Shown here piece by piece: positions 38,708-62,039 of a stretch of DNA of 64,000 nt; the first letter of the stretch is position 1; each line of letters opens with the position of its first letter. Source of the DNA: Roseibacillus persicicus (lineage in GTDB: Bacteria > Verrucomicrobiota > Verrucomicrobiia > Verrucomicrobiales > Akkermansiaceae); NCBI RefSeq assembly GCF_014651675.1, contig NZ_BMXI01000001.1:251968-315967 (forward strand). Reading direction: 5' to 3'. The position numbers and the translations under genes were made by a program. A model generated the notes under the pieces. That model saw only the letters and a program-made list of their open reading frames with translations, was not told the origin of the DNA and ran no database searches.

Positions 38708-38917
38708 TTAGCGACCTATCTCAGCCTTCACCTGTGCCCACGTTCTGCGGGAAGTTGGATCCGCACGCATCTCGGCGAGACGTCTGCCGGCCTCGTCCGA
38801 ACCATCATCCGAGTCGGCCAAAACCGCAGGCAGAGAGCCCAGCAATTCAGCGACCAATTTTGCCCGCTGGTCTTCGGGTAAATTCATTGCTTCGGAGCAA
38901 ATTTCTGTCGCATTCAT
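38708..38917 (-). CDS. Addiction-module antitoxin (TIGR02574-like)
   Basis: A 69-residue protein with the opening MNATEICSEAMNLPEDQRAKLVAELLGSL, the typical helical start of the addiction-module component family, and a charged C-terminal arm ending RRTWAQVKAEIGR that would wrap the toxin. It lies directly upstream of the ParE-like gene on the same strand, the usual antitoxin-first order. It probably represses its own operon. Confidence 0.85.
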   Translation of the reverse strand: MNATEICSEAMNLPEDQRAKLVAELLGSLPAVLADSDDGSDEAGRRLAEMRADPTSRRTWAQVKAEIGR

Positions 38918-41778: not shown

Positions 41779-41854
41779 GCGTGGGTAGCTCAGTCGGTAG
41801 AGCAGTTGGCTTTTAACCAATTGGTCCTGGGTTCGAATCCCAGTCCACGTACCA
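41779..41854 (+). tRNA. tRNA-Lys (anticodon TTT)
   Basis: A complete 76-base tRNA with encoded CCA. The acceptor arm GCGTGGG pairs with TCCACGT (G-T pairs at both ends). The D arm is GCTCAGTCGGTAGAGC, the anticodon stem TTGGC..., with loop CTTTTAA giving anticodon TTT for lysine. The T arm is CTGGG-TTCGAAT-CCCAG. Its last 30 bases are duplicated at 61860, which marks it as the integration target of the 20-kb element to its right. The intact copy stays at the left junction. Confidence 0.97.
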
Positions 41855-41901
41855 CTTTCGAAACCCGCTAAGCCCCAAAGGCCTAGCGGGTTTCCTCGTT
41901 T
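41825..41901 (+). repeat. Left attachment repeat (attL)
   Basis: Contains the last 30 bases of tRNA-Lys (from TCCTGGGTTCGAATCCC) plus the downstream hairpin. It matches 61860-61936 in direct orientation with mismatches only around 41873, 41875 and 41877. The crossover presumably lies within the 48-base perfect part. Confidence 0.9.
41861..41893 (+). terminator. Terminator hairpin after tRNA-Lys
   Basis: AAACCCGCTA pairs perfectly with TAGCGGGTTT around a 13-base loop that can add GCC/GGC. It begins seven bases after the tRNA. The same structure, with three loop changes, recurs at 61896-61928 in the right-hand repeat. Confidence 0.75.
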
Positions 41902-41917
41902 CTAGAGGCGGTGAATT

Positions 41918-41937
41918 AGTAACATAGTAGTAACAGT
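41918..41937 (+). promoter_or_regulatory. Candidate left arm-type site for integrase or excisionase
   Basis: Two AGTAACA-type units (AGTAACATAG then TAGTAACAGT) lie 16 bases inside attL. The same 20 bases with one change occur at 61747-61766, just inside the right end. Confidence 0.5.
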
Positions 41938-42200: not shown

Positions 42201-42812
42201 TCAGCCTGAAACCCCTTCGTCTTCCCATCTGGACTTCACCCACCAAGGGGCCCAGTTGGCGCGGAAGCTGCCAAGCTCCCTCAAGGCCTCCCAAATCTCG
42301 ATTGCTGTGTCTGGATACAGAGTGATTCCCCTGTTTTCGCCATTCAGTATCACCGCCTGCCATTGAATCGCGGCTTGAATGTGAGGCTTTCTCATCAAGC
42401 GGCTTGCACTGGCTTTTGCTGCACTTTTACTCATGACATTCGGATAAGCCTTGAGGTAAGCCACATACGCTCGTCTTCTGAAGGTGAATAGGCCATTACC
42501 GGTTTCGCCTAGAACGTAGTAGCGGGCAAAATTCCAATGACGAATACTGATCACCTTCTCTACCTCTGCTCTCATTGGTGGTAATTTTGTCGGACGAGTT
42601 TTGTTAACTTTTCTCACGAGCAACGAGGGCCTACCTCGCTTTCCCTGGCGTTTGAAAAGCTCCACAAAACCACGTCGTTCCGCTTCTTCGAGTACAAGCC
42701 TACTAATTTCGTGATTCCGTTCCAAATGACGACTCGTGACCTCACCCCCATTTCGTTCAATGGCACTCTCTATGGCAGCGAGTTTTTCTACCGTGAGGAC
42801 GTTCTTTCTCAT
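42201..42812 (-). CDS. Winged-helix protein with terminase small-subunit-like C-terminal half
   Basis: A 203-residue protein, first from the left end of the element. Residues about 5-65 look like a winged helix (EVTSRHLERNHEISRLVLEEAERRG, then the basic wing FKRQGKRGRPSLLVRKV). Residues about 90-150 (FRRRAYVAYLKAYP, SKSAAKASASRLMRKPHIQAAI) resemble the helix-turn-helix of phage terminase small subunits (Terminase_2), which bind DNA for packaging. The ATG at 42812 is chosen; an in-frame TTG at 42953 would add 47 residues with no clear structure. If the resemblance is real, it would let the element redirect packaging of a helper phage; a regulator is the alternative. Confidence 0.5.
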   Translation of the reverse strand: MRKNVLTVEKLAAIESAIERNGGEVTSRHLERNHEISRLVLEEAERRGFVELFKRQGKRGRPSLLVRKVNKTRPTKLPPMRAEVEKVISIRHWNFARYYVLGETGNGLFTFRRRAYVAYLKAYPNVMSKSAAKASASRLMRKPHIQAAIQWQAVILNGENRGITLYPDTAIEIWEALRELGSFRANWAPWWVKSRWEDEGVSG

Positions 42813-43013
42813 GATAATATGATTGGAAACCAAAGGCGGATGAACTCTCCACTTACCTCGACTGAGTCCGTTTCCATTAGTGATTCCCGGAAACTCCACA
42901 CCACTCAAGATTTCGGCACCGTGGTTTCCGCTCGTTTCTTTTTTAGTTTCCAATTCAAGGCTCTCGTTTCCTGTTCTCCCCCTTAAGAGGAGAAACAGGA
43001 AACCGACACTAGC

Positions 43014-44072
43014 CTAGGCTGGCATATAACGGCCATTGTTGATCCGTATTTTCCCATCAGACTGAAGCGTTTTCGCCCACTTCGAAATGGTGCCTTTTGC
43101 TTTTCCTAGCTCATTGGCAATATCGGAAGCTGATGTCATTCCTCCAAGAATCATATCCAGCATCTGCGACTTGGGGTCGTAGGTCTCAGTGGTTACTTCG
43201 GCCCTGCCACCGGTCGTATCAATCTTCCAAAGCAAGGGAGGGGCATCTGCAGCTGGACAGTTTCGACACTTGGTAAAGCGAGTCTTGAATTGGTGTGACG
43301 ACTCATCGCCATCGCCTGACTCCTCCAAGCTTACGATCCAATGCGCAGCATCCTCCCGACGACTCGTGCCTCGAATCAGACCGTTGCGTCCTGCGTGACA
43401 AACCAGAACCACAGCGATGCCCCTTCGCCGAAGATCGAGAAGCCATGGTCCGACTCGTTCCCAAGAATCACTTTCATTTTCGTTCAAGCCACGAAAAGCC
43501 GTTGAGAGATTATCCAGAATCAAAACCTTAACACCTTCGGTCTCACATAGTCCAAGGAGAGCGATTTGCTGTGACGGGTCTGCCAAATTCAAAGTGATTT
43601 CATCATTAGAACGCTCGAAAAGTGATTCATGGCTGAGAACGTGAAACTGGGGGCTTCGAATATCTAGTAGCTCACAACGCTTTTGAAGGTCGGCAATGTT
43701 CATTTCTGAATCGAGATACAGACACTTTTGTTTGAGGGGAGCTTCCCAGTGCTGACCTACGCCCATACCTTCCGAAAGAGCTTTCCCCATGAGAAGACTG
43801 AGCCAACTCTTCCCAACTCCACGCGGCGCGAAGAGAATCCCATAGTCACCTTCACGAAAGAATGGTGAGAGATAGGTTGCTCTCTCTGGAATCTCTTGAG
43901 CGAGAAAAGCAGGTGCAGAAGCCAAGGAAGCAGCGAAGGCACTTTCCAAGGCGCTTTTGTTCTCCTCGTTCTCGGTGGCCTCTAGAAGTCGCGGCCCGTT
44001 TTGAATACCCGCCTCCATTCGTTCTCGAGCTAGCGCTTCCTCGGCCTTTGTAAGTTCTTTTGATGCGCTCAT
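43014..44072 (-). CDS. RepA-like RecA-fold ATPase (AAA_25), probable replicative helicase
   Basis: A 352-residue P-loop protein of the plasmid RepA/DnaB-like group. Walker A APRGVGKSW lies at 82-90, the Walker B strand VKVLILDNLST near 180, followed by FRGLNENESDSWERVGPWLLDLRRRGIAVVLVCHAGRNGLIRGTSRREDAAHWIVSL, the characteristic sensor and H-loop region. The C-terminal 60 residues form a helix-turn-helix (MTSASDIANELGKAKGTISKWAKTLQSDGKI). The ATG overlaps the primase stop as ATGA, so the two are translated together. It likely unwinds or loads at the element origin during excision-replication. Confidence 0.82.
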   Translation of the reverse strand: MSASKELTKAEEALARERMEAGIQNGPRLLEATENEENKSALESAFAASLASAPAFLAQEIPERATYLSPFFREGDYGILFAPRGVGKSWLSLLMGKALSEGMGVGQHWEAPLKQKCLYLDSEMNIADLQKRCELLDIRSPQFHVLSHESLFERSNDEITLNLADPSQQIALLGLCETEGVKVLILDNLSTAFRGLNENESDSWERVGPWLLDLRRRGIAVVLVCHAGRNGLIRGTSRREDAAHWIVSLEESGDGDESSHQFKTRFTKCRNCPAADAPPLLWKIDTTGGRAEVTTETYDPKSQMLDMILGGMTSASDIANELGKAKGTISKWAKTLQSDGKIRINNGRYMPA

Positions 44073-45217
44073 GATGCGGAGTGGTCGAGGTAAAGAAGGG
44101 TTGCGGGCACTTTGGTTTTCTCGTGTATGCAGGAGGGCATTCTCAAGGGCGCAGATGAGCACGAGTCAAGAAGGACAAGGTCTATCCGTAGCCCGGGAGC
44201 GAGCGTTCTCACTGCCGTGAGAGCATCTTGGGACGGTCTATCAAACCAGAGATGGAGACTCTTGTTTCCGGTGTCGATAACAGCACGGAGGTGCAGCCCG
44301 AGCTCCTTTTGACAATACCCCGCCAAGGCATGGCTAAGGACTTTGTTCCGCCTCTTCTCCTCATCGGTGACAGGCTTCTTGCCAATCAAATCGTCGCTCT
44401 CGATTACGATGAAGGGACTGGTAATCACATTATCTTTCGAACGACTGACTGAGCCTGCTTGGAAATGCCCGGCTGCAACACGAGACGGAAGTGAGCTTTG
44501 TCTTATCCACTCCCGACAGGTCTTGAAGTTCTCCCGATGCTTCTCTTTACCAGTCTCGTGACACTCCCCCATCCAGATAATCGCTTCAGGAGGAAAAAGA
44601 ACGTCTATGAATGCAAAAGTCGCCAAGGCTGGAGTATCGGCCCATACTGGTGAGCTATACCAGAGATCCGCCCGCCAATCTTTGGAGAGGTAGGGTCTCA
44701 ATTTCTCATGGAGATTTTCACGTTGATACCTAGTGAGAGTTTCCTGCTCGAGAAGTTCCCTTTGCCGCTTCTTCGACTGGGTGTAGGCAATCCGATTCTG
44801 CTCGGCCCATGCTCGCCGATCCGCTTGAGATGGCCGTAGAGAGCGTTCGAGCTGAACCCCTAGCGATTGAGCTACTGATTCGATGGCCTCAAAGCTACAG
44901 GGGTTGAGTCCTGTCTTCTCAGCATGGAGGTCAATGAGGGAACCCGCACGACCACAAGAGAAACAATTGAAAAGCCAAACCCCTTTCCTATCGTCAACAA
45001 TGCACGAGGGCGTTCTATCCTCGTGAAAGGGACAGTGAAGAGACAGGCTGTGAGCTGTTCGCTTCTGAATATGCTCCGAGTGATACCGTTCAAGATAGAA
45101 CGGCAGTCTCTCTTTGAGTTCTTCCAGCTTGATTGACTGCTTGATGTGGCTAACCTCGTCAGGTCGGACTGCAAATCGACTCTCTGAGGAAGCCACTCGA
45201 AAGAGTGGCTTTTTCAT
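44069..45217 (-). CDS. CHC2 zinc-finger primase of the element
   Basis: A 382-residue protein with a DnaG-type CHC2 zinc finger at the N-terminus: C62-P-F-H65 and C85-F-S-C88 (LHCPFHEDRTPSC, WLFNCFSCGRAGSL). The C-terminal half (DTGNKSLHLWFDRPS, VLLDSCSSAPLRMPSC) resembles the catalytic or DNA-contact region of plasmid and phage primase-replication proteins. A classical DnaG TOPRIM motif is not obvious. It would synthesise primers for element replication. A good Shine-Dalgarno sequence (GGAGGAG) lies upstream, which is rare in this window. The start overlaps the excisionase-like stop by one base. Confidence 0.78.
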   Translation of the reverse strand: MKKPLFRVASSESRFAVRPDEVSHIKQSIKLEELKERLPFYLERYHSEHIQKRTAHSLSLHCPFHEDRTPSCIVDDRKGVWLFNCFSCGRAGSLIDLHAEKTGLNPCSFEAIESVAQSLGVQLERSLRPSQADRRAWAEQNRIAYTQSKKRQRELLEQETLTRYQRENLHEKLRPYLSKDWRADLWYSSPVWADTPALATFAFIDVLFPPEAIIWMGECHETGKEKHRENFKTCREWIRQSSLPSRVAAGHFQAGSVSRSKDNVITSPFIVIESDDLIGKKPVTDEEKRRNKVLSHALAGYCQKELGLHLRAVIDTGNKSLHLWFDRPSQDALTAVRTLAPGLRIDLVLLDSCSSAPLRMPSCIHEKTKVPATLLYLDHSAS

Positions 45218-45465
45218 TACTCGGACTCCTCCTTGTTTTGGTTCTCAGGTAAGAAGCTTTCAATGTAGGCTTCAATCGACTTCGCATCGAATAGACGGGT
45301 CGCCCGCGCCATCCCGGGCTCTTGCAGAGACACGGTGCGAATCTTTCCTTCTTTACCGAGTCTCCAAAGCTTAGTGCGACTGATGGAATAGATAGCCACA
45401 GCTTGCTTGTCGCGAAGCCAGAGGGCCTTTTGATTCATGGAGGTTAGGTTCATGTTCGTATTCAT
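45217..45465 (-). CDS. Excisionase/AlpA-like DNA-binding protein
   Basis: An 82-residue MerR/HTH_17-type protein. The core ALWLRDKQAVAIYSISRTKLWRLGKEGKIRTVSL is the winged-helix pattern of excisionases and AlpA regulators (helix, turn, recognition helix SRTKLWRL, wing). The C-terminal FDAKSIEAYIESFL is also typical. Several in-frame ATG codons (45465, 45453, 45438) are possible starts. It heads the co-translated primase-RepA group, so it may both assist integrase in excision and control the replication genes. Confidence 0.8.
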   Translation of the reverse strand: MNTNMNLTSMNQKALWLRDKQAVAIYSISRTKLWRLGKEGKIRTVSLQEPGMARATRLFDAKSIEAYIESFLPENQNKEESE

Positions 45466-45525
45466 GACGCCCAACAGTAGACATTCTCATGCCACTACGT
45501 TCCACCCGCTGAAAGAGAAGTTTAC

Positions 45526-46935
45526 TTAATTTCCATTTTTTCTCTTCACCTTCGCGGTTTTCACAAAATTGCGAAACTCAAGCCAAGTAATCTCCTTGAG
45601 TTTGGAAGCTTCCGGATTCGAGAAGCAGCATGGATTGGCATCAGACTTGGGATCTCTTATCCCACCGAGATATTTGAACACACTCGCCGGGGTCGTCTTG
45701 GCATTTGCCTTCTCGAGCCGTTCCAAAGACTTTGCAATAAGCAGCGTCCAAGGGTGAGGCTTCTTCCCTGGCGGGTTGATCAAAGCGGATCTGACTTTCT
45801 CCTCCAAATCACCGTTCCCAAAGAACTCAAAGAGAACCTGACGCCTGCCATAACGGACGACGGATTGTAGAAGATTCCAAAAACTCTCGGACTCCTTTGC
45901 TTGGGTTAGCCAGCTATTCTCCGACTCTCCCATTGCCGTCTTCATCATCGAGTCGATTCCTTCAGCGGCTTGAGCAAACAAAGCGGCCTGCTCCCCTCCT
46001 CCCTCGGCTTCCGGTAACTCCTTGAGAGACTTGGCCCATACTATTTCTTTCCAAAACTCCTCCTTGGGACTCAGAGGCTCTAGCTCCCTTTTGAGTTCTT
46101 GAACTCGTGGATGAGAGTGAAGCGTCCATGTTAGAGAAGCGGGAGGGTGCCACCCCCTACCGCGATTCTGCAAAACTACCGGAAACAGCTCTTTGCCCTC
46201 CTTCCCTTTTCGGCTTTCGACTGCCTTGAATCGTCCTCCTCCAAAATCTGCTTCCACCCATCCTCGCTTAACCAATCTTCGAGCTTGTTCGGGCTTTCGC
46301 ACCTGACTTTCCGCTTCTTTCAGAAGACGCTTCTCCCAGAATTCGAGGTAGCGCTCCCAATGCAAATCAACTTCAGCGGTATAGGCCATGCCCGGCTCAA
46401 GTGAACGAACCCAAGAAATTGTCTCAGCATACTCCTCGAAAAGTTCGATTTCCCACTCAGGAAGCTTCTTTTGAACCCTCTTGGAAGTCACACGATGATA
46501 CCAGGCGAGAGGCATCCGATTGAAATCTCGCCGCTTCTCACTCGACACCGCCGGGCTCGGATCCAGAACAAACAGCCCCTCCTCGTCTTCATCGGTTACT
46601 ACCCAACGCCAAGCTCCCTTCTCCTCCTTGAATTGGATTGCCACCAATGCTTGAGCAGGAACACTCTTCCAATCTTTCGCCGCAACCTTCCCTCCAAGCT
46701 CCCAGCCCAGCGCATCGAGAAACTCCCTGAATTCTTCGATGCCCATCCAATGGCCTTTATCCCAGCAATTGCTCCCCCAAAGCGCCTTTCCTGCTTTAAG
46801 GACATCCTCAAAAGTCAGCCTCGACAGCATGGCCAAGCAGGCAACGGCACACGAGGTTCCTGATCGTTGAGTGATTCGGCGCATCTTCCGCAAAGCCTTC
46901 TTTTCCGAGCGGATTTTGAATTCTTCTAGATTCAC
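45526..46935 (-). CDS. C39-peptidase-like protein lacking the usual catalytic histidine
   Basis: A 469-residue cargo protein. Its first 145 residues match the C39/papain-like opening: Gln23 (oxyanion) and Cys29 in QRSGTSCAVACLAML, a helix FEDVLKAGKALWG, then VPAQALVAIQF and LFVLDPSP. At the position where C39 enzymes have the catalytic His before W/Y-VV, the sequence reads GAWRWVV, so His appears replaced. The remaining 320 residues are Trp-, Glu- and Lys-rich and unrecognised, with segments such as EYAETISWVRSLEPGMAYTAEVDLHWERYLEFWEKRL. There is no signal peptide or membrane helix. It might be an inactive sensor domain or an unusual peptidase. A 38-residue frame precedes it by 27 bases. Confidence 0.6.
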   Translation of the reverse strand: MNLEEFKIRSEKKALRKMRRITQRSGTSCAVACLAMLSRLTFEDVLKAGKALWGSNCWDKGHWMGIEEFREFLDALGWELGGKVAAKDWKSVPAQALVAIQFKEEKGAWRWVVTDEDEEGLFVLDPSPAVSSEKRRDFNRMPLAWYHRVTSKRVQKKLPEWEIELFEEYAETISWVRSLEPGMAYTAEVDLHWERYLEFWEKRLLKEAESQVRKPEQARRLVKRGWVEADFGGGRFKAVESRKGKEGKELFPVVLQNRGRGWHPPASLTWTLHSHPRVQELKRELEPLSPKEEFWKEIVWAKSLKELPEAEGGGEQAALFAQAAEGIDSMMKTAMGESENSWLTQAKESESFWNLLQSVVRYGRRQVLFEFFGNGDLEEKVRSALINPPGKKPHPWTLLIAKSLERLEKANAKTTPASVFKYLGGIRDPKSDANPCCFSNPEASKLKEITWLEFRNFVKTAKVKRKNGN

Positions 46936-47160: not shown

Positions 47161-50100
47161 CTAATCTTGAAGAAGACTCATCAAGCTATCGTAGCTCTCA
47201 ATGACATCGTAGCGAACTTCGTCTTGAGTGATCTTTGCGAAGAACTTTTTCGCACAATCAATCTTGGCCTTCTCAATCTCGCGAAGCTGCAGTGACGACA
47301 TCGATCCCTTCGTCTCAGCAATGAAGTAAAGATGCTTCACTTTTCCGCTCTCGAAGGCAATTGCCCAGTCGGGGTTGTAATCACCGACCGGAGTGGGGAT
47401 GGAGAAGCCTCGCGGAAGTTTGGCGTAGACGGTGACCTCGGCGGAAGTGTCCAAGTTTCCCACAAACGTGCGCTCTCCCTTGGAGTCGGTGAACACGTAG
47501 TCATAGATGTGGTTGTTTGCCTTGTAGGCTTGGCTGAAGTCGGCGTGCTTGGGACTAGTGAAAATGGTCGAATCAAAGCGCTCATCGACCGGGTCATAAG
47601 CGAGATGCTCGATGATGGCGGTTGCTTTTTGCTCCTTGATGAGCCGGGAGGCCTGCGTGATGAAATCCTCGGGATTCGTCCGGAATTGATTGAAGACCGG
47701 CAGCTCCAAGCCTTGCAGAATGCTTCCGACCGTTCGACGAGTCAGCTGGGTGTGCGCGGCAATCTCGCCAATGAGATCGTAGGAGACTGTCGATTGGATG
47801 CTCTTGGCATTGTATTCCGTTTCTTGAGCCCGAAGAACGAAGCTCTTTCCCGCTTCGAGACTCTCTTGCGAAATCTCGTCTTCTTGCTGCCCTTTCTTCA
47901 ACTGGAACTGCAGCTTAGCAACACGCAAGTTAGTGTTCACCGCCTTGATTGCCTTTTGCACCAATTCTTCGCTATCAAAGGCCACCGTGTAGGCCGCTCG
48001 GTGATTGATGCGTTTCCAGAGTTCTTGGAATTCCTTCTTCTGGAAGTTCTCATTGAGGCGATTTTCCTTCGCGGCCCGGTTATCCACAATCTGCGGCATC
48101 GCGGCGTCAGAGAAGACGGTGTCGATGAGGACCACTAGCGAGTCGGTGTAGGCTTCCAATTCCGGAGGCAGCTTCGCCAAGGTCCCGTTCTCTTTCGCTC
48201 CGTGATACTCCTCCGTAATGAGGTCTCCCTCATCGATGTAATCGTGCTTGATGAGATAGCGGTGAATCTTCTTCGCCAAGCCCTTGTCGATGGTGACCTG
48301 CTGCCCCTCGGCATCGGTGATCACCTTGCCTTCAAAGAACGACTCTGTAGCCATCTTGGGACGACTGGACAGACTGTCGCGAATGTCCGCTTGCAGCCCC
48401 TTCACGAAGACTTCGTAGGATTCGTTTGCGATGACGGTGAGCTGATTGATCTCGTGTGCCGTCGCCGGGTCGTCCAAACGCTCTCCATCTTGATTCACAC
48501 AAAGCCGCATCCCACGTCCCACCTCCTGACGGCGGGAAACGGTGTTCTCGCTGTGCTTCAGGGTGCAAATGACGAAGACATTGGGGTTATCCCAGCCTTC
48601 GCGCAAAGCGGAGTGGGAGAACAGGAAGCGGGTGGGCTCTGCAAAAGACAGCAGGCGCTCCTTGTCCTTCAAGATGAGGTCGTAGGCCGAGACGTCATCG
48701 GTCAGCCCCGCATCTTCCCCTTTGGCTTTGACCTTGGGGTCGATGAGGCGTCCTTTCTTGTCGATGGCGAAGTAGCCATTGTGCGTTTTCTTCGGAGCGA
48801 TGCCTTTGAGATATTTTTGAAAGCCGTCTTCGCCGAGTTCCAAGTATTCGTTCAGAAGCTCGTTGTATTCATCCTCAAAGACTTTGGCATACTCCCCTGC
48901 TTCTTCCTCGCCCTCCTCATTGTAGCTACGGTATTTGGCCACCTCATCGATGAAGAAGAGAGTCAGCACCTTGATGCCTTGCTCGTGCAGCTCCCGCTCC
49001 TTCTCCAAGTGCGCGCGAATCGCTTCTCGAATCTGGATCCGTCGCAGGGCCTCCTCATTGAGATCACCCGAGACTCGTCCCACCGGAAGCTCCTTGCCGT
49101 TGGTGAAGATGATTTTGTCGTGAATGGCATCAATGTCGGAGACCACGTAGCCTTGGTATTGGCCCAATTCCCCGGAAAGCTCGAAGAGATTATCGCCTAC
49201 CGATATCCTGCGCAGGGTGCGCTTAATGTGGCCGCTCTTGGATTGAATCTCGAACTCCAAGCGCGCCACGGGTTTGGAGCGGGAAAGAGTCAATCCTTCC
49301 AGGTAAAGATAGCTATCCGTGCCCGTGAGCCCCTTCTGAGCAATCCCGTGCACCGCAATCTTCTTCACCAGCTTCTGATTGTAGGCATCCAGGGCATCGA
49401 GACGATGGACCAGGTTGTGCGTGGTCTTGTGAGTAGCCGAGTAGCGCAGCACAAAGAGGGGGTTAAACTCCTTGAGGGAGTCCTGCGTTTTCTTCCCTTC
49501 CATCCGCTGGGGCTCATCGAGAATCAGAATGGGCCGGTTCGCCTTGATGACGTCGATGGGACGACGGGATTGGAAGTCATCCAGCTCCTCGTAGATCCGG
49601 CGCTGATCCTTCCCTCTGGCGGCGAAGGCCTGCGTATTGATGATCATCACATTGATACCCGCGTCGGAGGAAAAGGACTCCAGATTGTGCAGTTGCTTGG
49701 AGTTGTAGATGAAGAAGCGGGCCTTCTTGTGATAATCCTGCAGAAAGTGCGCGCTGGTCAGCTCCAAGGACTTCTGGATCCCCTCGCGAATCGCAATACT
49801 AGGGACCACGATGATGAACTTGCTCCAGCCATAACGACGGTGCAGCTCGAACATGGTCTTGATGTAGACATAAGTCTTCCCCGTGCCAGTCTCCATCTCC
49901 ACATCGAGGTTGACATCGGCGTTGACGGTCTTCACGAGGTTCTTGGACACCGTCAGGTTTTGCCCGCGTTGAACAGATTTGACGTTTTCCAGTAGGGCCT
50001 CAGTCGGCAAGGCCAAGTCGGCATTACGAAAAGCGTTGTCCTGATAATCCATTTCCTTCTGCCCGTCCGTCCCCTCCTTTTTGCCCGGATCAAGACGGTA

Positions 50101-50196
50101 GGTAAGTCCGGCCTGTTTGGGTTGCCCCATAAAGCAATCGACGACGGCGTGGACGGCGGCTGCTTGGTAAGCCTTGTGGGTGAATTGGAGTTTCAT
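47161..50196 (-). CDS. Type III restriction enzyme, Res subunit
   Basis: ATP-dependent translocase-endonuclease that cuts foreign DNA when paired with the Mod subunit. In 1011 residues (normal length) it has Walker A ETGTGKT at 102-108, DEPQ box in PILILDEPQRMEG near 228, the helicase lobe 2 motif HSALREGWDNPNVFVICTLKHSENTVSRRQEVGRGMRL near 545-580, and a C-terminal PD-(D/E)XK nuclease (GDYNPDWAIAFESGKVKHLYFIAETKGSM). It is separated from its Mod gene by a toxin-antitoxin pair, which is unusual because mod and res normally adjoin. Its upstream spacer has three 21-bp-spaced TCACA repeats. Confidence 0.95.
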   Translation of the reverse strand: MKLQFTHKAYQAAAVHAVVDCFMGQPKQAGLTYRLDPGKKEGTDGQKEMDYQDNAFRNADLALPTEALLENVKSVQRGQNLTVSKNLVKTVNADVNLDVEMETGTGKTYVYIKTMFELHRRYGWSKFIIVVPSIAIREGIQKSLELTSAHFLQDYHKKARFFIYNSKQLHNLESFSSDAGINVMIINTQAFAARGKDQRRIYEELDDFQSRRPIDVIKANRPILILDEPQRMEGKKTQDSLKEFNPLFVLRYSATHKTTHNLVHRLDALDAYNQKLVKKIAVHGIAQKGLTGTDSYLYLEGLTLSRSKPVARLEFEIQSKSGHIKRTLRRISVGDNLFELSGELGQYQGYVVSDIDAIHDKIIFTNGKELPVGRVSGDLNEEALRRIQIREAIRAHLEKERELHEQGIKVLTLFFIDEVAKYRSYNEEGEEEAGEYAKVFEDEYNELLNEYLELGEDGFQKYLKGIAPKKTHNGYFAIDKKGRLIDPKVKAKGEDAGLTDDVSAYDLILKDKERLLSFAEPTRFLFSHSALREGWDNPNVFVICTLKHSENTVSRRQEVGRGMRLCVNQDGERLDDPATAHEINQLTVIANESYEVFVKGLQADIRDSLSSRPKMATESFFEGKVITDAEGQQVTIDKGLAKKIHRYLIKHDYIDEGDLITEEYHGAKENGTLAKLPPELEAYTDSLVVLIDTVFSDAAMPQIVDNRAAKENRLNENFQKKEFQELWKRINHRAAYTVAFDSEELVQKAIKAVNTNLRVAKLQFQLKKGQQEDEISQESLEAGKSFVLRAQETEYNAKSIQSTVSYDLIGEIAAHTQLTRRTVGSILQGLELPVFNQFRTNPEDFITQASRLIKEQKATAIIEHLAYDPVDERFDSTIFTSPKHADFSQAYKANNHIYDYVFTDSKGERTFVGNLDTSAEVTVYAKLPRGFSIPTPVGDYNPDWAIAFESGKVKHLYFIAETKGSMSSLQLREIEKAKIDCAKKFFAKITQDEVRYDVIESYDSLMSLLQD

Positions 50197-50337: not shown

Positions 50338-50946
50338 CTAGCTGGAAATCGGCCAACGATCCGCCAGAGTGGGTTGCAAATGTTCGGCTTGTTTCATGGG
50401 TTCCAAGGAATTGGGGTCTTCGAAGGCATTTCGAAACAAAGCAAAGTTAGTTCCTGTAATGCCCGACTGATGACAGGCGTTGGAAGGAAAGGCGATGCCC
50501 GCTACAAGTTGCGGTATATTGTCAACCAGTCCGAAAACCTTTCGCTCAGCAATCGCGGCACCGATCTGATGTAGGGGGAGGGACTCTCGCTTCATCCGGC
50601 GATCGATACCGGCAAAGAAGTCGCGTTCCTCAAGTCCAAAAGTAGCCCAACTGCTCTCATCCTGTAGATCAAGTAAAAGCCGACAACGCAAATAGGCAAT
50701 GAACTGGTGAGCTTCACCAGTGGGGATGTGGAAGCGATACTCCCTCTTTGCGGTTTCGCCCTCAGGCGAAACATATAGGGCGTGGACTCCCATGGCATTG
50801 CACCGGTTGGGGTTCCCTGTAACGTGGAGCAAAGAACGGGGATCGCACTCCTGATAGGTTCTTTTAGGGACTACTCGGTGGACGCAGCCGAAGAAGAATG
50901 TCGTTGGAGCAGTGGTTTTCTGCGTTTTGTATATCAGTTCCATCAA
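50338..50946 (-). CDS. RES-domain toxin
   Basis: Toxin of a RES-Xre type II toxin-antitoxin pair; known members degrade NAD+. In 202 residues the RES core is visible: the early Arg in HRVVPKRTYQ, then NPNRCNAMGVHALYVSPEGETAKREY (the G-R-W/C-N-x-x-G, Y-x-S, A-x-x-E pattern), and later GIAFPSNACHQSGITGTNFALFRNAF (G-I-x-F-P-S and G-x-N-x-x-L-F). Canonical Trp is replaced by Cys in the R-C-N motif. The gene follows its antitoxin by nine bases. Either of two adjacent ATG codons (50946, 50943) may be used. Confidence 0.8.
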   Translation of the reverse strand: MMELIYKTQKTTAPTTFFFGCVHRVVPKRTYQECDPRSLLHVTGNPNRCNAMGVHALYVSPEGETAKREYRFHIPTGEAHQFIAYLRCRLLLDLQDESSWATFGLEERDFFAGIDRRMKRESLPLHQIGAAIAERKVFGLVDNIPQLVAGIAFPSNACHQSGITGTNFALFRNAFEDPNSLEPMKQAEHLQPTLADRWPISS

Positions 50947-50955: not shown

Positions 50956-51957
50956 TTAACTAGGATTACCCTCTAAGATACGTGCTGCCAAGCCCGCAAC
51001 TGCATCGACATCTCCTTCCAGGATGCACTGCCGGGGCGACGCGTCTTCCAAGCTCCAATTGTCCGCTCCTAACCAGGCATTGAATTCAGCCTCGCTCATT
51101 ACGGTTCGCAAGCGGGCGATCAGCTCGAAGTTGCGCAGACAGTCCTGCAGCCGATCATTGTCGGGGGTGGCAGAAAAGGCCGCTGCGGAAACCGGCCGAT
51201 CCAACGATTGCGAGAGAATGGTGGCCATCTCTTTGCCACGATAGCCAAAGATTTTTCCAATTTTCTTGCCGCACAAGCGGCTTGGCTTGGAATCGGAGTA
51301 AAGGTCGGCGATTCCCTTGAGACCATCCCTCGCGTCATCAAGAAGGGTAGGCGCTTCCGTCCAATCGGCGACCGCTTTGCTAAAGGCTTCGCTAAGCTCG
51401 TTCTCCAGATTCTCCAAGTGGTGGGCAATCTCCACTCGTCCCTTCAAGCGCGGATATTGACCAAACAAGCGCGAAGTGAGAGCTAGCGTCAAAGTCGATG
51501 GCTCCGCAAAGACGATCACGAGGTAACTGGCATTGCCCTCGTCATTCAACCTTTCAATGACGGGGTGGATATCCTCAAGAAAGCGCTCCGGGTAATCCTC
51601 CTCAATCACGGTGGTAAAGACCACGAATTCGGGCAGAGTGGCCCGCTCTACAAGTCCCTCCACTTCATCCTCATAGACATCAACTGCCACATTGGCCGCA
51701 TCCAAGAAGGCCTGCATCTCGGCCTTGCCCAACAAATGGGCCTTCAACTCGGCTAGCTGCTTGTCAACCAGAGCGGTGGCCCGGGCAATCGCTTGCTGAC
51801 TCTGAGCTTTCTTGGAGGGTTTGCGGTTCCGATTCTTTAACATTAGTCGGTTCTGTCCTTTCCTGAGGACTTTATTCCCTAACGCCTGTCCTGCGACCGA
51901 GCAGAGCGACGTTTTGCGGGGTTTAACCGGGGCGGTGCTCACTTTCGTTGCGCTCAT
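50956..51957 (-). CDS. Oversized Xre/MbcA/ParS-type antitoxin with long N-terminal extension
   Basis: Antitoxin partner of the RES toxin. The last 110 residues fit the family: helix-turn-helix-like GKKIGKIFGYRGKEMATILSQS, then the toxin-binding DUF2384 end MSEAEFNAWLGADNWSLEDASPRQCILEGDVDAVAGLAARILEG. Usual antitoxins are about 120-160 residues, but this protein has 333. The N-terminal 50 residues are Lys/Arg-rich and disordered. Residues about 60-215 form an unrecognised mixed alpha/beta domain (FVVFTTVIEEDYPERFLEDIHPVIERL, YLVIVFAEPSTLTLALTSRLFGQYPRLKG). That extra domain could sense a trigger. The pair sits between mod and res. Confidence 0.75.
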   Translation of the reverse strand: MSATKVSTAPVKPRKTSLCSVAGQALGNKVLRKGQNRLMLKNRNRKPSKKAQSQQAIARATALVDKQLAELKAHLLGKAEMQAFLDAANVAVDVYEDEVEGLVERATLPEFVVFTTVIEEDYPERFLEDIHPVIERLNDEGNASYLVIVFAEPSTLTLALTSRLFGQYPRLKGRVEIAHHLENLENELSEAFSKAVADWTEAPTLLDDARDGLKGIADLYSDSKPSRLCGKKIGKIFGYRGKEMATILSQSLDRPVSAAAFSATPDNDRLQDCLRNFELIARLRTVMSEAEFNAWLGADNWSLEDASPRQCILEGDVDAVAGLAARILEGNPS

Positions 51958-52161: not shown

Positions 52162-54126
52162 TCAAATCGCCCGCACCTCGGTGTGGGGGCTGAGGGTCTT
52201 GAAGAGTTGCTCCACGTTGATGCGGGCGGCATCGTCGGCAAAGGAAGCATCGCGGAAGACGGCCCGCAGGGGATGCTTCTTGGCGAGGGCTTTGGAGAAA
52301 TCGTCACCGAGACCAGCCTCGAAGCAGGCCGCTAGGGCGGCGTCCTCATTCTGCCCATTGCCGGGGGCCACGAAGAAAACTTCCTTGCCCGCGATGGTCT
52401 CGCGCGTGATGGGGAGCGCGAGGTCCACTCCCCAATCGAGCATCACTTGGAAGAGGAGGTCCTCAGGGCTGCGGTCGGGCTTGATGTTCTCCACCGCGAG
52501 GTCGAGGCCGTCTTGGGTGGTTTGGTCGGGGCGCTTGTAGTAGTCGCCCGTCATGTTGGAGCTGTCGACTTTGAGGACGCGAAAGCCAGTGTCGAGCTGG
52601 GCCAGCTTGGCGGTGATTTCGTTATGCTTTTCGGAGCCTGGCAATTCGCCTTCGAGCTGCGCTGTCAGTTCTTCTCTGATCTTCGCACCGGCGCGGCGGA
52701 TGCGCTCTTTGCCAATCTCGGCAATGGTCGCGTAACCGGCTTTGAAGGCCGCTGACTTTTCATCACAAGGCTCGGGGAGTTGAACTTGGATGTGCCGCCT
52801 TGATCCTCCGTCTTCGGCGTTGAGTTTCATGACGGCGTGGGCTGAGGTTGCGGATCCGGAGAAGAAGTCGAGGATGATGTCGTTGGGGTTCGCCCCAATG
52901 AGAGCTATTCTTTGTAAAAGAGCGACTGGTTTAGGTGTTGAAAACGACGGACCATCAAAAAGCCTTCCTAGTTCCTTCTTCGCCTGATCACTGTGACCTA
53001 CATCTTCAAAAGACCAAAAAGTTTGCGGAGTAACAGCACTCTGAACTTCTGACAGAAATCGTTTAAGTCGAGGTCGAGAGGTTCCTTCAACGCCAAACCA
53101 AATACGATTGTCAGATATTAGCTCATCAATCTTGTCTCGGTTGTAACGCCAGCTGCTCCCATCGGGAGGAAGAAACTCCTCATTGGTTTTGGGAGACTTG
53201 ATTGGAAAGATTGCATATTCACGCGCTTCAGTTCGAAGCAAATTATCACTCGTCCACCTTCCTCGAGAATCATTGTCCGGATTCTTATAAATACTAAGTT
53301 GTTTTTCGGTTCTAGGCAGCCCATTGAGAAAGACTTTTTCCGAACGTTTACCGTAAACAACGATATGATCGTGTGATTCCGAAATGTGTCTCGAGTCTGA
53401 TTTTGTGCTATACTTCTTTTGCCAAATAATATTCGCAATAAAATTTTCGGCTCCAAAGACCTCGTCAGAAACTCTTCTCAAGTTAGCGATTTCATTATCA
53501 TCAATCGAAATAAAAATCACCCCATCCTCCCTCAATAAATTCCGCGCCAGCTTCAGCCTTGGGTACATCATGCTAAGCCACTCCGAGTGATAGCGGCCTC
53601 GCGCACTGGAATTCTGCTGCCACTTTTCCTCATCGAACATCTGATTCCCGTCTTCATCGACGTCACCTGAGAGCTCCCGATAATCCTCGCGCGTCATGGA
53701 GTAGTTATCGTCGTAGATGAAGTCGTTGCCGGTATTATAAGGCGGGTCAATGTAGATCATCTTCACCTTGCCAAGGTAGGTCTCTTGCAAGAGCTTGAGG
53801 GCATCAAGGTTGTCGCCCTCGATGTAGAGATTCTCGGTGCTCTCAAAGTCCATCGACTCCTCGCGACACGGTCGCAGGGTCTTGGCGATGGGAGCATTGG
53901 CCGTGGCCAGCGCCTCCCGCTTGCCCGGCCAGTCCAAGCGATACCGCTCCTGCGGCCCCTCCACGAGATCCGCCGACAACTCCTGCCGCAGGAGGTCGAA
54001 GTCGATACCGCTCTTCACCGAGCCATCCTCCGTGAGGGTCTCGGTCATGCAGTTGGGAAAGAGTTCGGCGAGCTTTTCAATATTTTCCATGGTGAGGTCC
54101 TTGGAGTGGAGCTTGAGTTTGTTCAT
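52162..54126 (-). CDS. Type III DNA-methyltransferase, Mod subunit (N6-adenine, beta class)
   Basis: Recognises the target and methylates adenine, protecting host DNA and guiding Res. The DPPYNTG catalytic motif is at 127-133, before the AdoMet-binding motif IILDFFSGSATSAHAVM near 400, the order of the beta class. The N-terminal segment EGDNLDALKLLQETYLGKVKMIYI and QKKYSTKSDSRHISESHDHIVVYGK are typical of Mod proteins. The central target-recognition part (about 240-370) is more AT-rich in DNA than the flanks, consistent with recombination of specificity regions. Length 654 is normal. It lies 17 bases after the TOPRIM gene. Confidence 0.95.
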   Translation of the reverse strand: MNKLKLHSKDLTMENIEKLAELFPNCMTETLTEDGSVKSGIDFDLLRQELSADLVEGPQERYRLDWPGKREALATANAPIAKTLRPCREESMDFESTENLYIEGDNLDALKLLQETYLGKVKMIYIDPPYNTGNDFIYDDNYSMTREDYRELSGDVDEDGNQMFDEEKWQQNSSARGRYHSEWLSMMYPRLKLARNLLREDGVIFISIDDNEIANLRRVSDEVFGAENFIANIIWQKKYSTKSDSRHISESHDHIVVYGKRSEKVFLNGLPRTEKQLSIYKNPDNDSRGRWTSDNLLRTEAREYAIFPIKSPKTNEEFLPPDGSSWRYNRDKIDELISDNRIWFGVEGTSRPRLKRFLSEVQSAVTPQTFWSFEDVGHSDQAKKELGRLFDGPSFSTPKPVALLQRIALIGANPNDIILDFFSGSATSAHAVMKLNAEDGGSRRHIQVQLPEPCDEKSAAFKAGYATIAEIGKERIRRAGAKIREELTAQLEGELPGSEKHNEITAKLAQLDTGFRVLKVDSSNMTGDYYKRPDQTTQDGLDLAVENIKPDRSPEDLLFQVMLDWGVDLALPITRETIAGKEVFFVAPGNGQNEDAALAACFEAGLGDDFSKALAKKHPLRAVFRDASFADDAARINVEQLFKTLSPHTEVRAI

Positions 54127-54143: not shown

Positions 54144-54713
54144 TCAGAGTTGAAGGGCGCTTTCAGGAAAGAAGTGGGCGATGGTTTTCCAGAAGACTTG
54201 GAAGCTGTGGGACTGAATCCGAGAGGAATCGAGATGGGGAGCGATAGCGTGGGCCTTTGCGGTCTTGCTGGAGACACCAGTGATTTTGGCGAGTTCTTCC
54301 GAAGGGTTGCCGAGACTGTCAGGATTTCGGAATCTTGCGGTATTGGTGTGGTTGGTTGCGCGAGAGTGAGGATAGGCTTGCTGAATGGCTTCCATGTCAC
54401 CCAGCAACCAAGCTTCCAACTCTTGGCAGACGAGGCGAATATGATAGGGCTTCCCCGTGGTGCGAGCCCGTTCGCGGAGTCGCTCCTTCAACACCGTGCA
54501 ATCGGCACCATCATTGTCCCGCAAGATGATGAAGTGGGGAGAAAGATAGGACCAGCTGCGCATCTTGTGGGGAAAATTTTTCTCGAGATCGGCTTTCCCC
54601 TGAAAGGCAATAATTTGCCAATGGATCCCCTCCACTAAACTGGGGTAGTATCGGGTAAAAAGCGCGACAAGGGTGGCCCGCATGGAGGCCTCTTCAGAGA
54701 GGATGACGATCAT
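54144..54713 (-). CDS. DUF4276-like TOPRIM-fold nuclease partner of AAA ATPase
   Basis: A 189-residue protein with a TOPRIM-like metal site: Glu7/Glu8 in MIVILSEEAS and D66-N-D68 in FIILRDNDGADC, followed by YHIRLVCQELEAWLLGDMEAI, a segment typical of DUF4276/AbiLii-RloB relatives. The C-terminal helix pair ITGVSSKTAKAHAIAPHL also fits. Its start overlaps the stop of the AAA ATPase gene (ATGA), so the two act as a unit. Two-gene ATPase-TOPRIM pairs are known antiphage modules (for example AbiL-type); assignment here is by analogy. Confidence 0.75.
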   Translation of the reverse strand: MIVILSEEASMRATLVALFTRYYPSLVEGIHWQIIAFQGKADLEKNFPHKMRSWSYLSPHFIILRDNDGADCTVLKERLRERARTTGKPYHIRLVCQELEAWLLGDMEAIQQAYPHSRATNHTNTARFRNPDSLGNPSEELAKITGVSSKTAKAHAIAPHLDSSRIQSHSFQVFWKTIAHFFPESALQL

Positions 54714-55921
54714 ATCCCAGCATTGAGGCGGTTGGCGACTCCGTTGAACTCCCCCTGCTCCCAGAGGGTGCCCGGCTTCCAGCCTTCGGCAACTTGTTCG
54801 GCGAGAATCTTGTCGTTCTTCACTCGATGAATAGCCGAGATGCCTTTTTCCTTTTCAATCAAATAGAGACTATCGAGGGGGACTGCATTGAGAAACTGTG
54901 GGGAGTGAGTTGAAACGAAGACCTGGCCCCCACGACTGGCATATTCCATAAATTCTTCGGCAAGAATCTCCATCAACTCGGGGTAGAGCTGATTCTCCGG
55001 CTCCTCCACGCACAGAATGGGATGAGGCAAGGGGTCGTGCAGTAGTATGAGGTAAGCGAACATCTTGACGGTGCCATCGGAGACGTTCTTATCGATAAAG
55101 GGATCTTTAAAGGCTCCGTCCTTGTAGCGCATCAGGAGACGCCCGTCCTCGGTGAGCTTGACCTCGATATCGTCCACCCCCGGGACCCGCTCGCGCATTT
55201 TTCGCTTCACTTCCTCGAAGCGTTCCGGGTGATGCTCCATCAGGAAGCGAGCGACGGACGGAAGGTTGTCACCCGAGGCGGAAAGGTGCCGCGCATCGTC
55301 GTCGTCCTTGACCCCGCGGGCGTCGCCGATGTGGAAGTCGGAGATGTGCCATTGCTCGATGAGGGTTCGGAAGGCTTGCGCCGCTTTAAATTTGTCAAAC
55401 TGTCCCAGCCCTTTGATAGCTAGGGTGTCGGGAGAAGTTAGCTTTTGAAACTCTCGCTCTAGCTCTTCGTCGGGCTTGGTGAAATCTTCTTCATTGGTGA
55501 TGGCGTAGCCTTCGCCGTATTGAAAGTTGAGAAAGCGGTAAGGACTGCCATAGCGGCCGCGCTTGTAACGCAGCTCTTCGTGCGCGACGACTGGCTTGCT
55601 ATCTTTGTTCTCAATTTTGAGAGCATAGGTCACGAGGCGGTTTTTTCCCGCAATCTCCATGCGGAATTGAATCTCGATCTCGATCGCTTCCTCCAGATGA
55701 CCTCGAGTGACCACCTCTGAGAAGCCATTACGCCCTCCTTCGCGATTGAGAGCGGTGCGGACATTGGTTTCCAGGCAGCTCTTCAAAAAGGCAAAGGTCC
55801 GGAAGAGGGTTGTCTTTCCTGAACCATTACGTCCCACGAAGGCGCAGAAGGAAGGTAGATCGGTAAGGTCAACCGACTGCAAGGACTTGAAGTTTTGGAT
55901 CCGAATGGTTTCGATGCGCAT
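54710..55921 (-). CDS. AAA_21/RloA-type ATPase of an ATPase-TOPRIM defence pair
   Basis: ABC/SMC-like ATPase of 403 residues. The N-terminal strand RIETIRIQNFKSL and Walker A GRNGSGKTT (30-38) are followed by a long middle insertion, the short signature NVSDGTVKMFAYL near 285, Walker B ILCVEEPENQLYP, and the switch His in VFVSTHSPQFLNAV. This is the COG4637/AAA_21 layout found in OLD, RloA and AbiL systems, where the ATPase senses infection and licenses a nuclease partner. A 10-bp inverted repeat in the upstream spacer suggests that the pair has its own promoter. Confidence 0.85.
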   Translation of the reverse strand: MRIETIRIQNFKSLQSVDLTDLPSFCAFVGRNGSGKTTLFRTFAFLKSCLETNVRTALNREGGRNGFSEVVTRGHLEEAIEIEIQFRMEIAGKNRLVTYALKIENKDSKPVVAHEELRYKRGRYGSPYRFLNFQYGEGYAITNEEDFTKPDEELEREFQKLTSPDTLAIKGLGQFDKFKAAQAFRTLIEQWHISDFHIGDARGVKDDDDARHLSASGDNLPSVARFLMEHHPERFEEVKRKMRERVPGVDDIEVKLTEDGRLLMRYKDGAFKDPFIDKNVSDGTVKMFAYLILLHDPLPHPILCVEEPENQLYPELMEILAEEFMEYASRGGQVFVSTHSPQFLNAVPLDSLYLIEKEKGISAIHRVKNDKILAEQVAEGWKPGTLWEQGEFNGVANRLNAGI

Positions 55922-56056: not shown

Positions 56057-56713
56057 CTAGGATTGGAGGGTGTCGAGTTGGTCTTTGAGAAGATTGAGTT
56101 CCTGATTGAGGGCCACTCGACGGTTAAACTGCTTTTCACGGTTCGCTTTATTCTGAAGGGCTTGGATTTGGCGGGAGAGGAGTTGGTGCTGCTTGTTGCG
56201 GAGGATGAGGGCTTCGAGGGGTTCGTTTGACCGGGCGGAAAGCGGAAGCAATTGCTCGAAGAGGATGAGGTAGAGCTTTTCGAGATCAAGGGCGGTGGGG
56301 AGAACAAGAGGTGATGAAGATTGCGGCGTGAAAGGCGTGGAAAAGCGGGAGCCGAGAACGTGACCGAATAATTCACTTTCGCTGGGACGCTTGTAGGCGG
56401 CTGAGTAAGCCAGATGGCCCTCGATATTCTTCAAACGAAAGATAATGGGATGCGGGATGCTTTTGTCGAGGAAGTCGAGGAGGTCGGGGTGCACGTCTTT
56501 CCCCTTGAGGGCGAGATGAAAGACCTCGATTTCAGCTACGGCGGGAGTCGCCGGGAGGTTGATAGACTCTGGCGAGAGCTTGGCATGCCAAATGATATCT
56601 TGGACCTGCGACGTCAACAATTCACGGATACGCGTGGATGGATGGCTATTGGCCAGGAACTTGGCCTTGGCGATCTTGCGGTTAAGCAGGGAGGCTGGAG
56701 GGCAAATAAACAT
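56057..56713 (-). CDS. DUF4391-family protein
   Basis: A 218-residue protein resembling DUF4391: N-terminal MFICPPASLLNRKIAKAKFLAN (P-x-S-x-x-N-K-K-I-x-K pattern), IIWHAKLSPESINLPATPAVAEIEVFHLALKG, then IPHPIIFRLKNIEGHLAYSAAYKR, and a C-terminal coiled coil from about residue 170 (LILRNKQHQLLSRQIQALQNK). The function is not known. From memory this family is repeatedly found beside an SNF2-like helicase and type III methylases, as here. The ATG at 56713 matches the family start; a TTG at 56734 overlapping the upstream gene is the alternative. Confidence 0.75.
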   Translation of the reverse strand: MFICPPASLLNRKIAKAKFLANSHPSTRIRELLTSQVQDIIWHAKLSPESINLPATPAVAEIEVFHLALKGKDVHPDLLDFLDKSIPHPIIFRLKNIEGHLAYSAAYKRPSESELFGHVLGSRFSTPFTPQSSSPLVLPTALDLEKLYLILFEQLLPLSARSNEPLEALILRNKQHQLLSRQIQALQNKANREKQFNRRVALNQELNLLKDQLDTLQS

Positions 56714-56721
56714 CGGTCTGC

Positions 56722-57099
56722 TCACCTTAGCCAAATCAGTTGTCTGCCCTTCATCCGCCCGCTGAGATCGAACTTGGCTTGAGCTCCACGACCTAAGCCA
56801 AGACCGTAGTAGAAGTTCGCTGAAATAGAATATCCCTCTTCGGTGCGCTGAATCTCCAACTCCAAAACAGACTGAGGCTCGTCAGGCAGAAGCTCTCCCT
56901 CTCTCGCAAAAACCCCGGGATCCTTTAGATAGTCATCTCTCATGAAGAAGCTGACCAGAGAAAACAAATCAGCGGTAGCGGGAACTTCAGCAAAATCCTC
57001 GCAAAAAGAGTGGGGTTCAAGGAGCTGCTTCATCATGGCCGTGGCATGGGCAGGGCGTCGAATTTTACCAAATTCTTTCAGAAGTTGATTGGCGTTCAT
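56722..57099 (-). CDS. Unknown 125-residue protein between helicase and DUF4391 gene
   Basis: No family recognised. The N-terminal half is helical (MNANQLLKEFGKIRRPAHATAMMKQLLE), with an acidic middle (FCEDFAEVPATADLFSLVSFFMRDDYLKDPGVF). The C-terminal half is beta-rich with a repeated Gly motif (EGYSISANFYYGLGLGRGAQAKFDLSGRMKGRQLIWL). It starts inside the helicase stop codon (ATGA overlap) and ends eight bases before the DUF4391 gene, so it is clearly part of the same translated unit and probably a subunit of that complex. Confidence 0.7.
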   Translation of the reverse strand: MNANQLLKEFGKIRRPAHATAMMKQLLEPHSFCEDFAEVPATADLFSLVSFFMRDDYLKDPGVFAREGELLPDEPQSVLELEIQRTEEGYSISANFYYGLGLGRGAQAKFDLSGRMKGRQLIWLR

Positions 57100-61735: not shown

Positions 61736-61746
61736 GGCGAAATAGT

Positions 61747-61766
61747 AGTAACACAGTAGTAACAGT
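61747..61766 (+). promoter_or_regulatory. Candidate right arm-type site
   Basis: Paired AGTAACA units, 19 of 20 bases identical and in the same orientation as 41918-41937. It lies between the integrase start and attR. Confidence 0.5.
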
Positions 61767-61859: not shown

Positions 61860-61936
61860 TCCTGGGTTCGAATCCCAGTCCACGTACCACTTTCGAAACC
61901 CGCTAAGTCTCCAAGGCCTAGCGGGTTTCCTCGTTT
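61860..61936 (+). repeat. Right attachment repeat (attR) with tRNA-Lys 3' fragment
   Basis: Carries the last 30 bases of tRNA-Lys including CCA, then the terminator hairpin (61896-61928). It is not a functional tRNA because the D and anticodon arms are absent. The upstream base (ATCCTGGG against GTCCTGGG at the left) marks the repeat boundary. Confidence 0.9.
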
Positions 61937-62039
61937 TAAGATGAGCCCTTCGGGGCACCATGACTCCGCAGCAGACAAGCTGCTGCTAGCGAAATCTTTT
62001 CCAGCCTTTGGCTCTCAGGAGCTTCTCTATCTTCCCCCT

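Follow-up and report, generated by a model that had tools for sequence, protein, structure and literature searches.

A putative phage-satellite-like island with defence cargo and a TerS-like protein at a tRNA-Lys gene of Roseibacillus persicicus

The stretch of DNA analysed here (the window, 64 kb of the Roseibacillus persicicus genome) contains an island of 20,035 bp, inserted at a tRNA-Lys gene, which is probably a phage-satellite-like integrative element. The island is bounded by an 82-nt direct repeat (attL and attR), the two copies of which are 94% identical and include exact stretches of 48 and 24 nt. As listed in Table 1, its 14 open reading frames (ORFs) all lie on the minus strand. 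Counted from the integrase end, the order on this single strand is integrase (Int), cargo, a 469-aa protein, AlpA, primase, RepA, and a protein resembling the small subunit of phage terminase (TerS). The last four genes occupy one end of the island and the integrase the opposite end. An earlier inspection of the letters alone (the sequence-only reading) had named these four adjacent genes as AlpA-like, CHC2 primase, RepA-like ATPase, and TerS-like, and the Pfam and PHROGs matches bear it out. Just inside each att repeat lies one copy of the pattern TAGTAACAnAGTAGTAACAGT, which occurs twice in the 64 kb (at most 3 mismatches) and on average 0.00 times in 100 shuffled sequences; we regard the pair as candidate arm-type sites, used by either the integrase or AlpA. 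An empty integration site was sought in another genome of the genus (G432; G numbers denote the genomes compared). The right-hand neighbour gene is kept there, but neither the tRNA nor the left flank was matched in 16 kb, and the empty site was not established.

The AlpA-like protein gave modest matches to Pfam HTH_17 (E 1.1e-4) and to the PHROGs excisionase family phrog_66 (7.5e-4). Its homologues adjoin the primase or RepA gene in G595, G453, and G385. The AlpA gene overlaps the start of the primase gene by 1 base, and the primase and RepA-like genes have 4 bases (ATGA) in common. Both overlaps had been claimed by the sequence-only reading, and the second holds if RepA starts at ATG 44072; the ORF list places this start at GTG 44162. 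In the C-terminal part of the primase, D275, S320, H322, D346, and R359 were invariant in 9/9 sequences, and we take these residues to resemble the motifs of archaeo-eukaryotic primases (AEP). This AEP-like part (gene 44069-45217) goes uncalled by Pfam. When the primase family profile was compared with the PDB sequences, the AEP domain of PrimPol (6zp9) was reached at E 0.0091. The RepA-like protein matched the PDB structure of RepA (1g8y) at E 0.081 only. A search for a replication origin near the rep genes turned up just short inverted repeats and two-copy repeats.

The gene at 42201 probably starts at ATG 42812, since the alignments with homologues begin there, giving a protein of 203 aa. 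It is not a chance ORF because the family is conserved, with 24 ORFs at E<1e-20 in the ORF calls, the window's included. The protein matched the PHROGs terminase small subunit family phrog_51 at 1.8e-5; NCBIfam gave no match, and the family profile found nothing convincing among the PDB sequences. The full-length model (predicted local distance difference test, pLDDT, 82) showed a winged helix at the N-terminus and a helical domain at the C-terminus. Fold searches with the whole model returned nothing at E<=0.001 and no TerS among the PDB rows listed, and a second look at the PDB was occupied by winged-helix matches. The C-terminal domain was therefore folded separately (pLDDT 85.7). Among 619 PDB chains aligned, this model ranked the DNA-binding domain of the SF6 small terminase first and second, with Z 5.4 and 5.3, root-mean-square deviations of 2.2 and 2.0, 57/57 and 56/56 residues, and 23% identity; the next unrelated row had Z 3.1. 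Furthermore, a terminase small subunit was named in 13 of the first 22 rows when the same model was searched against a library of viral structures. On these models, the C-terminal half is predicted to have the TerS DNA-binding fold of the SF6 G1P type, at a modest Z. The half that the sequence-only reading had likened to TerS does fold in this way, whereas the added winged helix and the lack of an evident oligomerisation domain qualify the likeness.

The winged-helix half has relatives of another kind. In a search with the family profile, three DUF3987 proteins (495, 531, and 845 aa) were matched by this half at their C-terminal ends; the 845-aa protein carries CHC2 and Prim-Pol domains in addition. 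These replication-type proteins with a winged-helix end lie at L111:8557-10044, L112:7262-9799, and L164:3521-5116 (L numbers denote loci).

The distribution of the 42201 family was then examined. The family profile matched 30 of 386 Verrucomicrobiales genomes (E<=0.001), the weak matches covering one half of the protein only. A class-level search with the single protein matched 4/285 genomes, and a phylum-level search with the family profile matched 2/288; all of these were Verrucomicrobiales. Named records of relatives came from Verrucomicrobiaceae, Akkermansiaceae, and Prosthecobacter. The gene calls in the relatives' loci were longest-ORF picks by script, with rough boundaries, and one strong match (G591:C39) was missed. 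An integrase lay upstream on the same strand in 10/26 of the TerS rows tabulated, the window's own integrase being outside the stretch tabulated; several of the rows lacking one stop at contig ends or appear decayed. In the closest modules the gene set of the window is kept, namely in G595 (AlpA 2.2e-35, RepA 9.7e-130, TerS 1.3e-65) and on contig C269 of G523 (primase 3.6e-151, RepA 2.2e-132, TerS 1.3e-43). In G523, the TerS-like gene is followed downstream by a member of the integrase cluster (L102:181-1398), which perhaps belongs to the second of two tandem islands.

Att repeats were looked for in a chosen subset of 17 loci. Nine have an exact repeat, 31-64 nt long, located at a tRNA, and eight gave none (G171C55, G554, G378, G453, G385, G288b, G288c, and G500). 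Besides the window, eight related repeat-bounded elements of 5.2-17.3 kb were delimited: G228 (12,288 bp, tRNA-Ser), G263 (~5,230 bp, tRNA-Arg), G369C1 (7,508 bp, tRNA-Arg), G331 (5,340 bp, tRNA-Cys), G419 (8,915 bp, tRNA-Arg), G476 (17,344 bp, tRNA-Lys), G288a (~10.6 kb, tRNA-Ser), and G258 (7,769 bp, tRNA-Met). Six of the eight, or 7/9 with the window counted, carry the 42201 family; G258 and G288a carry another TerS family. In five of these seven a replication gene was recognised, namely in the window, in G228, G369C1, and G419 (DUF3987), and in G476 (helicase phrog_2373); in G263 and G331 its place is occupied by a related gene that has no Pfam family. The TerS-like gene adjoins the att repeat opposite Int in four of the seven (window, G228, G263, and G331); elsewhere, gene and repeat are separated by one ORF (G419), three small ORFs (G369C1), or ~10.7 kb of further genes (G476). 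The G263 and G331 elements are too short to hold the cargo of the window, so that the TerS-like gene does occur in small tRNA-inserted elements lacking this load, as the sequence-only reading had suggested looking for. Two other TerS-like genes were noticed on contigs with no phrog_2 match. One (L108:10039-10557, phrog_51 2.1e-6) overlaps the end of a 2323-aa ORF by 4 bases, and the other (L109:10585-11067), whose genome belongs to the same family as the window, is a strong stand-alone TerS (phrog_51 5.2e-26).

Further evidence came from the loci of the same primase, the profile of which matched 38/386 Verrucomicrobiales genomes at 1e-12. Of these, 27 loci were taken, and the primase was visible in the ORF calls in 24 (not in G190, G206, and G302). 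In four loci a recognised TerS of another family lies downstream of the primase: G258 (phrog_57, 1.1e-9), G288a (phrog_57, 4.3e-9), G288b (phrog_51, 1e-9), and G453 (phrog_4102, 6.3e-23). The PHROGs sample behind these matches consisted of small proteins encoded downstream and picked by eye: two from G258, one of them a TerS, and seven from G288a, G288b, G453, G557, and G500, three of them TerS. Family phrog_57 opens with an AlpA-like helix-turn-helix (HTH) and can match AlpA proteins; the G258 and G288a matches extend far beyond it. Since G288b has RepA (1.7e-128), primase (9.6e-35), and Int (7.6e-36) in common with the window, it differs from the window only in the kind of TerS. Likewise, G453 shares Int (7.8e-91), AlpA (9.4e-14), and primase (4.4e-88). 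The single 3.5-Mb contig of G288 holds three primase loci (L159, L160, and L161), two with TerS of different families and a third in which none was recognised by eye.

No capsid, large terminase subunit (TerL), relaxase, or conjugation gene was named in the island by Pfam (14/14 ORFs), PADLOC (9/14), or PHROGs (7/14), in agreement with the sequence-only reading, which had reported no capsid, relaxase, or conjugation gene there. A set of 10 proteins of G263, G331, and G258 scanned with PHROGs likewise included no structural gene or TerL; TerS profiles matched the AlpA-like HTH of G263. TerL was searched for with phrog_2 in 24 genomes (G288 and G453 not among them), which gave some match in 14 and none on the TerS contigs, save in G228 at a distance of 3.9 Mb, and with PF03354, which matched 0/24 in a set that included G288 and G453. 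PF03432, the sole relaxase family searched in the relatives, was found in 2/24 genomes (on contig C9 of the window's genome and in G228 at a distance of 2.8 Mb) and never near a TerS or primase locus. The constant company of conjugation genes, which the sequence-only reading had named as evidence that would count against it, was not seen for this relaxase family. A search with the primase matched 74 phage and 31 plasmid records, none with 80% query coverage, and among the matches listed it was mostly the zinc-finger part that aligned. No family of Stl-type repressors was matched among the island proteins, of which the 333-aa and 469-aa ones lack a clear family assignment.

The defence cargo occupies the stretch between the integrase and AlpA genes. 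In G342 (L091:7786-16670), homologues of Snf2 (E 0), DUF4391 (4.2e-45), Mod (1.5e-208), and Res (0) lie side by side, and a TerS-like gene of the 42201 family is ~450 bases away. Because they recur there as one block, Snf2-DUF4391-Mod-Res is probably a single defence unit that is transferred whole. A Snf2 homologue (1.6e-233) was also found inside the repeat-bounded G476 element. PADLOC gave no match for 10 proteins of G263, G331, G369C1, and G258, and one gene of G263 bears a weak resemblance to PD-(D/E)XK proteins. Weak Pfam matches (e.g. DUF7437 and PRA-CH) were dismissed as chance. Outside the island, two small genes at 38382-38917 of the window resemble, by eye, a toxin-antitoxin pair of the RelE/ParE type.

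Table 1. Features of the island and its borders (positions in the window)
Feature	Position	Strand	Evidence
tRNA-Lys (TTT), integration site	41779..41854	+	ARAGORN
attL direct repeat, beginning in the 3' part of tRNA-Lys and extending through the downstream hairpin	41825..41906		
Arm-type-like repeat TAGTAACATAGTAGTAACAGT, left copy, candidate integrase or AlpA site	41917..41937	+	
TerS-like protein, 203 aa: predicted winged helix (residues ~7-70) and TerS-type DNA-binding domain (~88-156)	42201..42812	-	
RepA-like hexameric helicase ATPase (AAA_25), C-terminal HTH	43014..44072	-	Pfam 1.3e-20
Primase: CHC2 zinc finger and C-terminal part with AEP-like motifs	44069..45217	-	Pfam 1.7e-11
AlpA-like excisionase/regulator (HTH_17)	45217..45474 (or from ATG 45465)	-	Pfam, PHROGs
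469-aa protein, weak C39-peptidase-like stretch	45526..46935	-	PF03412 E 0.0026, below cut-off
Type III restriction enzyme Res	47161..50196	-	PADLOC E 0; Pfam
RES-domain protein	50338..50946	-	Pfam 2.7e-6
333-aa protein between RES-domain gene and Mod	50956..51957	-	No family match (Pfam, PADLOC, NCBIfam)
Type III methyltransferase Mod	52162..54126	-	PADLOC 3e-234
DUF4276 protein, HEC-01 candidate defence pair	54144..54713	-	PADLOC 1.3e-46
AAA ATPase, HEC-01 candidate defence pair	54710..55921	-	PADLOC 1e-180
DUF4391 protein, adjoining the Snf2 gene	56057..56734	-	Pfam 4.2e-45
SNF2 helicase, HKD+Snf2 type	57096..60362	-	PADLOC 2.9e-125
Tyrosine integrase	60485..61735	-	Pfam 6e-15; PHROGs phrog_1 6.6e-49
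Arm-type-like repeat, right copy, just upstream of the integrase start	61746..61766	+	
attR direct repeat	61860..61941		

We infer from the gene content that the island is induced and packaged with the aid of a helper phage. Infection by the helper, or its induction, would turn on AlpA; AlpA and Int would then excise the island as a circle, probably via the paired TAGTAACAnAGTAGTAACAGT sites, and the primase and RepA would copy it. The TerS-like protein would mark the island DNA and pass it to the large terminase of the helper, and the island would leave in helper particles. In the integrated state, the type III restriction-modification system, the HEC-01-type pair, and the SNF2/HKD helicase would protect the host from other phages.

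Several observations weigh against a packaged satellite. The sequence similarity to TerS is weak, with Pfam Terminase_2 at 0.015, below the cut-off; in a PHROGs scan of 10 proteins the relative in G171C55 reached phrog_2606 at 0.012 only, and L105, L096, and L037 matched no family. The viral-library matches of the C-terminal model all had E >= 0.07, and a Z of 5.4 by itself could reflect a common arrangement. Moreover, the models lack a predicted oligomerisation hairpin, and since three short helices alone follow the DNA-binding domain, no oligomerisation domain was recognised. The winged-helix half may serve replication, because a related winged helix is present in the three DUF3987 proteins. 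The HTH_17 match of AlpA falls below the curated Pfam cut-off. Most of the 24 primase loci gave no recognised TerS among the chosen proteins scanned, and the TerS genes of other families had been selected by eye before the PHROGs scan. Neither phrog_2 nor PF03354 matched a TerL in any part of the genome that holds the window, so that a helper prophage was not found in it, and because many relatives sit on short contigs, the absence of TerL and relaxase genes beside them counts for less. Relatives of the protein were found neither by tblastn in phage and plasmid records nor in IMG/VR viral contigs; the latter negative is weak, since each of the two scans used one or two short patterns. No packaging site (pac/cos) turned up, and shared cos/pac sites were not searched for. 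The main doubt is thus whether the 42201 protein acts in packaging or in replication. The phage satellite with a defence load that the sequence-only reading proposed, together with tests for it, passed most of those tests, but no helper was found.

If the protein serves replication, the island would be a genomic island at a tRNA, able to replicate once excised but with no packaging of its own, and the protein a two-domain DNA-binding factor for origin recognition or for regulation of the rep operon. Its TerS-like fold would then be a DNA-binding fold and nothing more, and transfer would proceed by generalised transduction, transformation, or a foreign conjugation apparatus. The winged-helix ends of the DUF3987 proteins, the lack of an evident oligomerisation domain, the position next to the replication genes, and the failure to find a helper are all in its favour. 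Nevertheless, a replication factor leaves unexplained why four loci have, downstream of their primase, a recognised TerS of another family, and the closest solved fold found is the DNA-binding domain of a small terminase. We therefore consider such an island rather unlikely, although it is the strongest competitor of the satellite.

Integrase, primase/helicase, and TerS genes also belong to prophages, and a decayed prophage could have kept its integrase, replication, and TerS genes while losing the structural ones. Such decay hardly accounts for the recurrence of compact elements of 5.2-20 kb that combine a TerS-like gene with varied replication genes, or for window att repeats that are still 94% identical over 82 nt. 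Moreover, the 10 proteins of G263, G331, and G258 included no structural gene or TerL. This origin is accordingly judged improbable. Still less credible is an integrative mobilizable element with a cryptic origin of transfer or an unrecognised relaxase: the 333-aa and 469-aa proteins without clear family leave some room for it, and one relaxase gene does lie on contig C9 of the same genome, whereas no PF03432 gene was near the TerS or primase loci in the 24 genomes.

The phage-satellite-like element accordingly stays the probable account. More tentatively, and with less confidence than the satellite nature itself, the islands may form a Verrucomicrobiales satellite family outside every class compared below. 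Its packaging protein would join a DUF3987-like winged helix to a TerS DNA-binding domain and may link the completion of island replication to the onset of packaging; sister islands would use unrelated TerS, and the shared helicase/methylase/restriction block would be carried between hosts. Most satellite families described so far belong to a small number of well-studied bacterial groups. If the satellite reading is true, satellites are also common in Verrucomicrobiales, as the 30/386 genomes with the TerS-like family and the 38/386 with the primase would indicate, and they spread defence systems, type III restriction-modification among them, from host to host. For finding such islands, and for probing how a satellite diverts packaging, the two-domain TerS-like protein would offer a handle.

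By the definition in PMC11389934, a phage satellite is distinct from a phage, yet has mechanisms or DNA signals of its own that promote packaging in phage-made particles. The island is not itself a phage, as far as no structural or TerL gene was named in it, and its predicted TerS-type DNA-binding domain is a candidate for a packaging mechanism of its own. A search of the literature by titles and abstract openings, with most subscription journals outside its coverage, found no report on satellites in Verrucomicrobiota. The sequence-only reading had seen in the island the gene set of phage-inducible chromosomal islands (PICIs). According to the account in PMC6092414, PICIs, including the Staphylococcus aureus pathogenicity islands (SaPIs), carry int, an excision or AlpA factor, primase and rep, and only sometimes TerS. 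The island has this set, with an integrase and att repeats, an AlpA/Xis-like factor (on modest matches), a primase and replication initiator module, and a TerS-like gene. The same account places SaPI accessory genes, in some cases, between int and stl, a position matched by the island cargo. A strict PICI is not obtained, however: the introduction of PMC6092414 has the PICI integrase transcribed opposite to the excision and replication genes, a layout the source may not mean for all Gram-negative PICIs, whereas in the island both share one strand. Nor was an Stl repressor recognised, although the same source treats the existence of an Stl/Rpr-type master repressor in Gram-negative PICIs as unclear. 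The island further differs from PICIs in the winged helix added to its TerS-like protein, its 20 kb with much defence cargo, its Verrucomicrobiales host, and its lack of a known helper.

The phage-inducible chromosomal minimalist islands (PICMIs) of Vibrionaceae, as described in PMC10803314, share the int, alpA, and primase core, and the primase families in the PICMI search model, DUF3987 and DUF5906, recur among relatives of the island. That model requires insertion at fis, and the type element measures 6,110 bp; the island instead lies at tRNA-Lys and has a large cargo besides its TerS-like gene. The main text of that paper nowhere uses the word "terminase". With the small terminase G1P of phage SF6 (PDB 4zc3 and 2cmp), the modelled island domain aligned over the full 56-57 residues of the DNA-binding domain; it differs in lying C-terminal to a winged helix, in its short three-helix tail, and in an element that has no TerL gene. 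P4-like satellites with defence hotspots (PMC9122126 and PMC8628076) resemble the island in bearing variable anti-phage cargo, the P4 hallmark genes being outside the comparison. Because the island has neither the divergent integrase layout given for PICIs nor the fis insertion of PICMIs, it is filed in an unclassified phage-satellite-like group, and these islands are best read as PICI-like in function and not as strict PICIs.

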